Notes under the pieces: model-generated
Database searches by the model: none
Seen by the model: only the letters and a program-made list of their open reading frames with translations
Told to the model about the DNA's origin: nothing
Shown here: piece by piece, positions 46,876 through 51,069 of the stretch
Layout: each line of letters starts with the position of its first letter
Numbering within the stretch: the first letter of the stretch is position 1
Origin: Aquidulcibacter sp.
Lineage (GTDB): Bacteria; Pseudomonadota; Alphaproteobacteria; Caulobacterales; Aquidulcibacteraceae
DNA length: 64,000 nt
Direction of reading: 5' to 3'
NCBI RefSeq assembly: GCF_020253525.1
Contig: NZ_JADCBK010000027.1
Location: 1 to 64,000 of the forward strand
Program-made: the position numbers and the translations under genes

Positions 46876-47328
46876 ATGATGAATTTAGATGATATCGACC
46901 GAAGAATATTGCATATCCTGTCTCGGGACGGTCGCATCAGCAATGTCGATCTTGCAGGCAAGGTGGGCCTATCGCCCTCTGCCTGTCTCAGACGTGTCCA
47001 AGAGCTAGAGAGGCGAGATGTCATTCAAGGCTATCGCGCGCAACTCAATGCCGCCGCCCTTGGGATTGGTTTTTTGGCTTATGTGACGGTGGGTCTGTCC
47101 CGCCATACCAAGCAAGAACAGGCTGATTTTGAAGCGGCAATCAAACGCGCGCATCAGGTACGCGAATGCCACAACATAACCGGCACCGTGGAATATCTAT
47201 TGCGGGTCGAGACGACCGATCTACCAGCCTATAAGCATTTCCACACCGAAGTCCTCGGCGCCCTGCCCCAAGTCGCCACCATCACCAGCTACATCGTGAT
47301 GGGCTCACCCAAGGATGAGCGGGGGTAA
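46876..47328 (+). CDS. Lrp/AsnC-family transcriptional regulator
   Basis: LDDIDRRILHILSRDGRISNVDLAGKVGLSPSACLRRVQELERRDVIQGYRA. Confidence 0.92.
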   Translation: MMNLDDIDRRILHILSRDGRISNVDLAGKVGLSPSACLRRVQELERRDVIQGYRAQLNAAALGIGFLAYVTVGLSRHTKQEQADFEAAIKRAHQVRECHNITGTVEYLLRVETTDLPAYKHFHTEVLGALPQVATITSYIVMGSPKDERG

Positions 47329-47336
47329 AAACAATC

Positions 47337-47365
47337 TTGAATTAAAAGACTGCTCTGCCTATCTT
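47337..47365 (+). promoter_or_regulatory. Candidate sigma70-type promoter of the dual-OB/DUF488 cassette
   Basis: TTGAAT (47337-47342), 17-nt spacer, TATCTT (47360-47365), about 22 bp before the ATG. Confidence 0.4.
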
Positions 47366-47387
47366 GAGATAATGGGGAGAGACCGTC

Positions 47388-48065
47388 ATGCAAATTTTGA
47401 TAACTGACATTACAGATATGGCTGATGGCATGTATTGCGTTGCTGGCTGGAATGAAGCTGAAGGCCGCATGATCCGGCCATTGCCGCAGGGCCGCCATTG
47501 GCATGCAGAGCTTTTAGAGAAGCATCGCATCGCGGTTGGTTCGCGCATCGAGGTAATTCCGACTGGCAGACACCATAATGGCGATTATCCCCATACCACG
47601 GAGGATTTGGACGTGGTGACAGGAAGCATTCAGTTAGTTGATGAGGTTCCCACTTCACAGATTATCGAGATCGTTCCGGCTGCGGCTATGAACCTTACGC
47701 AAGCGTTTGAGGGACACCTGAGACTAGAGAACCCGTTTCGGGGCATTTCTCAAAAGCTTTGGGTCCCAGTTGGCAGTAGATGTCGTTCGCTAGTTTCGAT
47801 TAATCGTCCTTTTGGTTCAATTGAAATCCTTGTAAACAAGTTTGGAACGCTTCGAGCAAAAATCGAAAGTAACGAGGGTGACTTCAATCGCGTCGAGGTC
47901 ACGGTTTCCTGTTCATTGTTGAAACATGCATATCGAAAGGGCGGGGTCGCTCACGCGATGTCGAAGTTACCTGCTGCAGACAATTGGCATTTACGGCTGG
48001 GCCTTGCCAGAGAATTTGAGAAAACCCCAGGCGAATGCGCCCTTATGCTAAATGGTGTACTGTGA
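47388..48065 (+). CDS. Dual OB-fold (DuOB)-like protein
   Basis: 225 aa; MQILITDITDMADGMYCVAGWNEAEGRMIRPLPQGRHW N-terminal pattern; family assignment from memory. Confidence 0.6.
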   Translation: MQILITDITDMADGMYCVAGWNEAEGRMIRPLPQGRHWHAELLEKHRIAVGSRIEVIPTGRHHNGDYPHTTEDLDVVTGSIQLVDEVPTSQIIEIVPAAAMNLTQAFEGHLRLENPFRGISQKLWVPVGSRCRSLVSINRPFGSIEILVNKFGTLRAKIESNEGDFNRVEVTVSCSLLKHAYRKGGVAHAMSKLPAADNWHLRLGLAREFEKTPGECALMLNGVL

Positions 48066-48094
48066 TATTTGTTCAGTTTGGAGGATTCAGGCGC

Positions 48095-48718
48095 TTGATT
48101 TTCTCGATTGGTCATTCAACCCAACCTTATGCTGCGTTTCGCGACTTGATTGTCCAACATGGCGTGACGGCTATTGCAGATGTTCGATCCGTTCCCTTTT
48201 CGCGGCATACTCCGCAGTTCAATCAATCGCCGTTAAAGGCGCAATTGAATTCCGATGGCATCGCTTATGTTTATTTGGGTGATGTCCTTGGCGGTCGGCC
48301 AAATGACCAAAACCTCACAACTGATGGCGTGGCGGATTATGCCAAAATGGCCAATAGTCCCAGTTTTGAAAAGGGTCTGGACCGTGTCGTAATTGGGTCG
48401 AGTAATTATACCATTGCTCTCATGTGTTCTGAGCGTGATCCAATCGACTGCCATCGTTGTCTGCTTGTGGGGCGAGCGCTTCATGTCAGAGGCTTGAGTG
48501 TTTTCCACATCCTCAGTAACGGCGATGCGCAGTCACAAGTTGAGATCGAAGGCAAATTGATCCGGTTGGCCCGGCAAAACCCAGCTCAGTCGGACTTCTT
48601 TGCGAGTGATCAAGACTTACTCAATCGGGCGTATGAATTGCATGCACGCAGGGTGGCCTTTAGTGAACCCCGGGAAAGTCAAGCACGAGCCGGTGAGCGT
48701 CTATCAATGGAAAGATAG
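48095..48718 (+). CDS. DUF488-family protein (paralogue 1)
   Basis: TTG start with GGAGG 10 nt upstream; IFSIGHSTQPYAAFRDLIVQHGVTAIADVRSVPFSRHTPQFNQSPLKAQL and MCSERDPIDCHR signature. Confidence 0.85.
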   Translation: MIFSIGHSTQPYAAFRDLIVQHGVTAIADVRSVPFSRHTPQFNQSPLKAQLNSDGIAYVYLGDVLGGRPNDQNLTTDGVADYAKMANSPSFEKGLDRVVIGSSNYTIALMCSERDPIDCHRCLLVGRALHVRGLSVFHILSNGDAQSQVEIEGKLIRLARQNPAQSDFFASDQDLLNRAYELHARRVAFSEPRESQARAGERLSMER

Positions 48719-48726
48719 GTCTCTCG

Positions 48727-49173
48727 ATGTCTGAAATTATATTGAATACAATAGGTTTTACCCAAACGAGTGCCGAGTCGTTCTTCAAGCGACTTGCTAC
48801 TGCCGAAGTTAGAACGGTCATCGACGTGCGTTTGAATAATACGTCTCAGCTTGCTGGGTTTGCAAAAGCTAAGGACCTTGCTTTTTTCCTTAAGCGTATC
48901 GGCGATATCGGTTATTCTCATCAGCCGCTGCTGGCACCAACCCAGTCAATTCTGGACGCTTTCAAAAAGAACAAGGGTGACTGGTTTGTCTATGAGCGGC
49001 AATTCATGAACCTAATGGCTGAGCGGAAGATTGAGCATAAAATCGCGCCGGAAACGCTTCGTTCCAGCTGCCTACTATGCTCAGAAGCCAAGCCTCATCA
49101 TTGTCACCGACGATTGGTGGCTGAGTATCTAAACGGCAAATGGGGAAGTAGCCTACGCATACGCCACTTATGA
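48727..49173 (+). CDS. DUF488-family protein (paralogue 2)
   Basis: 148 aa; TIGFTQTSAESFFKRL..VIDVRLNNTSQLAGFAKAKDLAFFLKRIG, LCSEAKPHHCHRRLVAEYL. Confidence 0.85.
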   Translation: MSEIILNTIGFTQTSAESFFKRLATAEVRTVIDVRLNNTSQLAGFAKAKDLAFFLKRIGDIGYSHQPLLAPTQSILDAFKKNKGDWFVYERQFMNLMAERKIEHKIAPETLRSSCLLCSEAKPHHCHRRLVAEYLNGKWGSSLRIRHL

Positions 49174-49275
49174 CGGGCCGCCTACCACCAGCATCCGGTT
49201 CGCTGTTTCGCCGTCAGATAAGCAACGATTTGCTTCAATCGGCCTCGTCTTCAGGAACCCGAAATTTAGGGTCCC

Positions 49276-51069
49276 TCAATAAACCCGCAGCTTCGGTGGA
49301 ATCGTTGCGACGTCGTTGCTCATGGTATTCATATGCACAGGGCGATAGTCGATTTTGACCGAGCCTGTTGCTTCATCATACCAGGTCAGCGTGTGCTTCA
49401 TCCAATTGACGTCGTCACGATCGGCATAGTCCTCGCGCGCATGGGCCCCGCGGCTTTCGGTCCGATTGGCGGCACCATACATGGTCACCATGGCTTGGCT
49501 CAACAAATTGTCGAATTCCATGGCTTCAGCAAGGTCAGAGTTCCAGATCATAGAGCGGTCGGTGATGGCAATGTCGGGTGCGCCAGAGAACACCTTGTCC
49601 ATCTCCTTGCAGCCTTCGTCCAAGGTTTGGCCTTCGCGATAAACGGCGCAATGGTTCTGCATCACCTTTTGCATTTGCAGGCGCAATGCGGCAGTGGGCG
49701 TGCCGCCCTTGGCTTGGCGGAAGCGATCAAGACGCGCCAAATGGCTGTCAGTCATGGCATTGGTGATTTCAGGCTGACGGGCCCCAGATTGGACCGTCTC
49801 GCCACAACGCAGGCCAACAGCACGGCCAAACACCACCAAGTCGATCAAGGAGTTAGAGCCCAAACGGTTTGCCCCATGTACGGACACACAGGCTGCTTCG
49901 CCGACGGCCATAAGGCCCGGCACAACTTGGTCTGGATCGCCACCGACTTTGGTCAGCACTTCGCCATGATAATTGGTCGGGATGCCGCCCATATTATAAT
50001 GCACGGTTGGCAGAACCGGGATCGGCTCCTTCGTGACGTCTACACCGGCAAAGACCTTGGCACTTTCGGAGATGCCGGGCAGGCGCTGGGCCAGAATGGC
50101 TGGGTCCAAATGGTCAAGATGCAGGTGAATGTGATCCTTGCCGGGGCCAACGCCACGACCTTCGCGGATTTCCATCGTCATCGCGCGCGAAACCATGTCT
50201 CGCGGAGCCAGGTCCTTCACGGTCGGGGCATAGCGCTCCATAAAGCGCTCACCTTCCGAATTGGTCAGATAGCCGCCTTCGCCGCGTGCCCCTTCGGTAA
50301 TCAGACAGCCTGCGCCATAAATGCCAGTTGGGTGGAATTGAACAAACTCCATATCCTGTAAGGGCAGACCCGCCCGAAGTACCATCGCATTGCCGTCACC
50401 GGTGCAGGTGTGGGCGCTGGTGCAGCTGAAATAGGCCCGGCCATAGCCGCCCGTGGCCAGAACGGTGCGCTGCGCGCGGAAGCGGTGCAGCTTGCCGGTC
50501 GCCAATTCCCATGCCGTAACACCAATACAAGCGCCGGTTTCATCCATGATCAGATCAAGGGCGAAATACTCAATGAAGAACTCGACATCATATTTGAGTG
50601 AGTTGCCATAAAGCGTGTGCAAGATGGCGTGGCCCGTACGGTCCGCCGCCGCACAGGTGCGTTGGACGGGCGCTTCCCCATAATTGCGGGTCATGCCACC
50701 AAAGGCACGCTGATAGATTTTGCCATCTTCCGTGCGCGAGAAGGGCACACCCCAATGCTCGAGCTCATAAACCGCTGCAGGAGCATTGCGCGTTAGATAC
50801 TCAATTGAATCCTGGTCGCCCAGCCAATCCGACCCTTTTACGGTGTCAAACATGTGCCAGCGCCAGTCATCTTCGCCCATATTGCCAAGAGCTGCCGAGA
50901 TACCACCTTGCGCCGCAACTGTGTGTGAGCGAGTTGGGAAGACCTTCGAGATACAGGCGGTTTTCAGGCCAGCTTGAGCAGCACCCAATGCGGCGCGCAA
51001 ACCAGAACCACCCGCACCTACAACAACTACATCGAAAGTATGGTCATTCCACTGATAGTCGGCCGTCAT
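49276..51069 (-). CDS. sdhA: Succinate dehydrogenase flavoprotein subunit
   Basis: [53 protein letters not shown]-terminal [24 protein letters not shown]. Confidence 0.97.

Follow-up and report, generated by a model that had tools for sequence, protein, structure and literature searches.

A horizontally acquired DuOB and tandem DUF488 cassette in Aquidulcibacter sp., a divergent member of the candidate phage-defence system PDC-M45

The 64,000-nucleotide stretch of Aquidulcibacter sp. DNA analysed here (the window) is the initial 64 kb of a contig 97 kb in length; the host genome has 3.49 Mb in 167 contigs. It contains three adjacent genes on the same strand, designated A, B and C, separated by intergenic gaps of 29 bp (A–B) and 8 bp (B–C), in agreement with an earlier sequence-only reading of this DNA, made without database searches. 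The translations of the window show this cassette in the neighbourhood of lrp, a gene for a LysE-type transporter, a two-component pair and sdh genes. The features of the locus are as follows.

47330..49275, no strand assigned: insert lying between lrp and sdhA, whose 3′ ends converge (from the empty site in genomes L058, L059, L061 and L062)
47388..48065, + strand: gene A, divergent dual-OB (DuOB) protein of 225 aa, predicted nucleic-acid binder (ORF, HHalign, AlphaFold/Foldseek)
48080..48084, + strand: probable ribosome-binding site of B, GGAGG (sequence)
48095..48718, + strand: gene B, DUF488 protein of the PDC-M45B type, 207 aa, TTG start (Pfam, PADLOC)
48425..48457, + strand: CxE...CHR motif of B (sequence; conserved in 15/15 homologues)
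48727..49173, + strand: gene C, DUF488 protein of the PDC-M45C type, 148 aa (Pfam, PADLOC, AlphaFold)
49078..49110, + strand: CxE...CHR motif of C (sequence; conserved in 20/20 homologues)

The start of gene B is best placed at TTG 48095, since this codon lies behind the GGAGG sequence, the alternative in-frame ATG at 48035 would make B overlap A, and most B homologues begin near the TTG. The sequence-only reading had recognised B and C as DUF488 proteins retaining the CxE...CHR signature, and both the family assignment and the motifs were confirmed by Pfam and by the sequence. In the form C-x-E-x5-CHR, the motif was found in every one of the homologues listed above and in 27 of 27 members of a second set of C homologues, which overlaps the first. 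A promoter, TTGAAT-N17-TATCTT, had also been proposed; its letters are present upstream of the cassette, but they match the consensus at only 8 of 12 positions and are not reported by a consensus scan, and the promoter proposal is not supported.

The cassette was acquired by transfer. Eight further genomes of the genus were compared, and in four of them (L058, L059, L061 and L062) the site is empty, with the 3′ ends of lrp and sdhA lying about 5 to 15 bases apart; therefore, about 1.95 kb was inserted in the window genome, and the edges of the insert are known to within a few bases. The GC3 values of A, B and C are 0.48, 0.48 and 0.49, respectively, against 0.622 (sd 0.037) for the 38 other ORFs of the 64-kb window, which served as the sole reference for codon usage; all three values lie about 3.6–4.0 sd below this reference mean, and no single one of these ORFs has a value as low. 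The suggestions that the cassette is more AT-rich than its neighbours and was horizontally acquired are thus borne out, and the possibility that A, B and C are ordinary chromosomal genes is ruled out by the empty sites together with GC3. Gene A is present once in the host genome, and the PADLOC model for PDC-M45B found no match in any of the eight congeneric genomes.

The convergent lrp/sdhA gap (window positions 47328-49276) looks like a small insertion hotspot with the cassette as one of its cargoes, since, besides being empty in four genomes, it holds different cargo in the others, which represent different species of the genus: L060 has an alpha/beta-hydrolase gene there, L056 an ORF that looks similar, L057 a winged-helix regulator and an SMR transporter, and L063 other DNA. 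The cargo of L057 is bordered on its far side by a second copy of the last 25 bases of lrp, which hints at a recurrent integration site.

Sequence comparison and structure modelling indicate that protein A is a divergent DuOB homologue with a tandem OB fold, in line with the dual-OB resemblance noted earlier. Its score with the Pfam DuOB profile (PF22557), 20.3 bits, is under the curated cut-off of 27, and an HHalign comparison with canonical DuOB proteins gave a probability of 94.3% (E=1e-7, 194 columns). The AlphaFold model of A (pLDDT 90.3, pTM 0.87) had its best Foldseek matches in the PDB with a murine DNA-binding protein on dsDNA, Teb1, POT1 and single-stranded DNA-binding proteins (best E=6.9e-4, prob 0.99); the TM-scores were low, about 0.3, as expected for OB folds that are flexibly linked. 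The PADLOC PDC-M45A models matched neither window A nor its relatives in three other genomes of the same order (L032-L034), and window A belongs to a diverged DuOB branch that current detection models miss. When A, B and C were searched by sequence against solved structures, none had a meaningful match, and no known toxin domain was seen in domain searches of the three proteins.

Both B and C match the Pfam DUF488 family (PF04343) with 79.5 and 79.1 bits, respectively (cut-off 22.2); we know of no activity assigned to this widespread family. Protein C also matches DUF488-N3a (PF22751; 37.1 bits versus a cut-off of 27), for which B gave no match, and no SLOG domain was detected in B by Pfam. 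B and C are paralogues, an HHalign comparison of the two giving a probability of 98.8%. For the AlphaFold model of C (pLDDT 90.5), a PDB fold search returned nothing at E<=0.001, the PTP-fold phosphatase 2i6p appearing weakly, and a search of viral predicted structures retrieved mainly unnamed or uncharacterised phage proteins; a DUF488 protein was matched too, but with an E-value above the 0.001 limit. In PHROGs, the only matches were to families of unknown function. Among isolated phage genomes, window C found no match, and another C used as the query retrieved only weak Gordonia phage matches. The DUF4326 domain, which bears a Cys...CH motif similar to that of B and C, has been placed in the rhodanese-phosphatase superfamily (PMC9503650) and predicted to bridge NAD signalling and DNA modification (PMC9503650, PMC7824862). 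Through their DUF488 membership in Pfam, window B and C would belong to this superfamily; the PDB fold search with window C gave no significant match.

Among the PADLOC models, PDC-M45B matched B with 238.7 bits (E=1.1e-71) and PDC-M45C matched C with 222.9 bits (E=2.9e-67). PDC-M45 is a phage-defence candidate in PADLOC-DB 2.0.0 with the same composition as the window cassette, namely DuOB, PDC-M45B and PDC-M45C in three adjacent genes on one strand. The PDC-M45A models match DuOB proteins in other copies of the cassette but, as mentioned, not the A protein of the window. On the basis of the B and C matches and the gene order, and not of the A model, the window cassette is classified as a divergent new member of this catalogued candidate system. 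The sequence-only reading had proposed an uncharacterised defence or stress module: the cassette is indeed conserved, but it is already on record as a candidate, and its link to defence is one of association. A literature search found no publication on PDC-M45 and no phage assay.

The A-B-C arrangement was found in the three genomes of the same order mentioned above. Among 21 other genomes with a strong match to C, drawn from class and phylum samples, A-B-C is present in five (L071, L072, L093, L094 and L096), A-C-mSLOG-DUF4326 in two (L095 and L098), A-C in one (L081) and B-C in one (L092), while C has no detected partner in 12, including L082, where it lies at a contig end. A scan of genome contigs with a single protein query recovered three loci. 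The order B-C-A occurs in two cyanobacteria and in L041. Overall, copies of the three-gene set are found in both proteobacteria and cyanobacteria and are carried by plasmids and viral contigs as well, and this recurrence in distant genomes rules out a chance adjacency of A, B and C. Co-occurrence of the three families, OB folds in the first protein and a codon usage unlike the chromosome average had been named beforehand as the points on which the sequence-only reading could fail, and it survived on each of them, on the last through a base composition clearly unlike that of the neighbouring genes. At L092 (9703-11615), B and C are intact and an IS21 istB gene occupies the place of A; this cassette was apparently broken by the insertion sequence.

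On viral contigs, A adjoins C in all 36 cases where C is present. Ten of these contigs carry B and 24 carry a gene for an mSLOG-DUF4326 fusion, and none carries both; the exclusion has a Fisher p of 3e-7, which is descriptive since several contigs are near-identical. The two contigs with neither partner are L117, which ends there, and L136, in which a C5 methylase gene follows. Since B and mSLOG-DUF4326 never occur together on one C-bearing viral contig, they look like interchangeable partners. Pfam confirmed the mSLOG-DUF4326 domains in 10 of 10 proteins tested, nine of them from viral contigs. The form with DuOB, DUF488 and mSLOG-DUF4326 was observed at L106-L130, L132, L134, L102, L068, L095, L098, L159 and L160. 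These cassettes, found on phage contigs, on small plasmids and in E. coli, resemble that of the window in being mobile, in consisting of three short genes and in having the DuOB gene next to that of the C-type DUF488 protein, but differ in carrying mSLOG-DUF4326 in place of B. The fusion is not modelled in PADLOC-DB 2.0.0.

Terminase and portal genes are among the neighbours of the cassette on viral contigs, and therefore at least some copies reside in genuine phages or prophages. On viral contigs, the cassette is also associated with BREX: at L104, A-B-C lies immediately upstream of pglZ, which it overlaps by 4 bp, and brxL comes after pglZ, and at L105 brxL lies downstream of A-B-C. On plasmids, the cassette adjoins CBASS genes in Agrobacterium and cas1/csx16/csm6 (type III CRISPR) in Allochromatium. 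In E. coli SC487, the DUF4326 form adjoins icd within a prophage-like element that also carries pinE and mcrA, and its genes bear the annotations 'dual OB domain-containing protein', DUF488 and DUF4326; in E. coli strain 97.3, genes for an integrase, for a recombinase and for an HNH endonuclease are close to this form. In contrast to the copies at L104 and L105, the window copy has no BREX genes among its immediate neighbours, nor any other defence gene.

Relatives of C were detected on 133 plasmids. Stand-alone C genes on large plasmids of Comamonas and Klebsiella adjoin uvrB (L067) or uvrA (L069) and formaldehyde-metabolism genes, which suggests a role of the plasmid-borne stand-alone C in aldehyde or DNA-damage tolerance. 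In L078 (9792-10624, - strand), a stand-alone C lies directly after a gene for an AlkB-like 2OG-Fe(II) oxygenase. Other stand-alone copies are found in housekeeping settings.

With moderate confidence, we propose that the cassette is a mobile PDC-M45-type conflict system, comprising DuOB and two DUF488 proteins, that would restrict phage through nucleic-acid end processing. The two OB folds of A would bind exposed nucleic acid, probably ssDNA or a junction of single and double strands, and A would bring B and C to it as a complex. Proteins B and C may be paralogous rhodanese/phosphatase-like enzymes in which a conserved Asp-x-Arg and the CxE...CHR residues form a phosphate-binding pocket, and which could remove or transfer a phosphate or a sugar group on nucleic-acid ends, a processing step that would hinder phage DNA. 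C would be the constant enzyme, the second being either B or the mSLOG-DUF4326 fusion. This chemistry is proposed because DUF4326 has been placed in the rhodanese-phosphatase superfamily, with predicted roles on ribose-linked phosphates and in linking NAD signalling to DNA modification, and because Burroughs and Aravind reportedly predicted in 2023 that the RapZ-C-DUF488-DUF4326 clade processes DNA ends. The proposal also draws on the resemblance of the model of A to DNA binders such as Teb1 and POT1, on the invariant motif of B and C, on the constant pairing of A with C on viral contigs and on the acquisition of the cassette by transfer. Phage defence itself is likely by association, since B and C match candidate-defence models and copies of the cassette lie beside BREX, CBASS, type III CRISPR and mcrA; it is weakened by the lack of defence genes around the window copy and by the stand-alone C genes near repair, detoxification and housekeeping genes, and the proposal as a whole by the PDB fold search of C, which gave no significant match. 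More tentatively, one could hypothesise that a core of DuOB and C takes either B or mSLOG-DUF4326, giving a modular phage defence in two versions with a novel chemistry at nucleic-acid ends, of which the window cassette would represent the diverged-DuOB branch.

The stand-alone copies of C raise the alternative of a repair or detoxification module, in which A finds damaged or blocked DNA or RNA, B and C remove the blocked sugar-phosphate or adduct, and the cassette spreads as a stress-resistance trait. The proximity of C to formaldehyde-metabolism genes and to uvrA or uvrB on large plasmids, and to the AlkB-like oxygenase gene in L078, speaks for it; however, all these loci contain C only, whereas the full cassette occurs with BREX, CBASS and CRISPR and on phage contigs, and we regard this explanation as unlikely. 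The substitution of mSLOG-DUF4326 for B could point instead to nucleotide signalling, since SLOG domains act as sensors of nucleotide signals or cleave them: the enzymes would make, sense or degrade a signal of the NAD/ADP-ribose type, the SLOG form being the sensor version and A coupling the response to DNA. Consistent with such a role, DUF4326 is predicted to act on the ribose-linked phosphates that ADP-ribose derivatives carry (PMC9503650). Nevertheless, the three-gene unit includes no effector protein and B has no SLOG domain, which makes signalling somewhat less probable than repair.

The overlap with pglZ on L104 and the adjacency of A-C to the C5 methylase gene on L136 would also be compatible with an accessory add-on to BREX or restriction-modification, inert when alone. 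The window copy, which has no partner system adjoining it, would then be stranded cargo. This is the least probable of the explanations considered, because many copies have no shared partner system, and the intact reading frames and motifs of the window copy imply selection.

PDC-M45 was already catalogued; the useful leads are the exchange of partners and the association between stand-alone C and repair genes. Together, the partner rule, the invariant motif and the intact E. coli version allow the function of DUF488 to be approached in a compact and directly testable way, and the divergent DuOB branch means that current detection models undercount PDC-M45. On two Bosea plasmids (L162 and L163), a B-like DUF488 gene occurs in a conserved block that also contains several hypothetical genes, a cold-shock gene and one for a dcm methylase, and tyrosine recombinase genes are close by; this block is perhaps another uncharacterised system using B.
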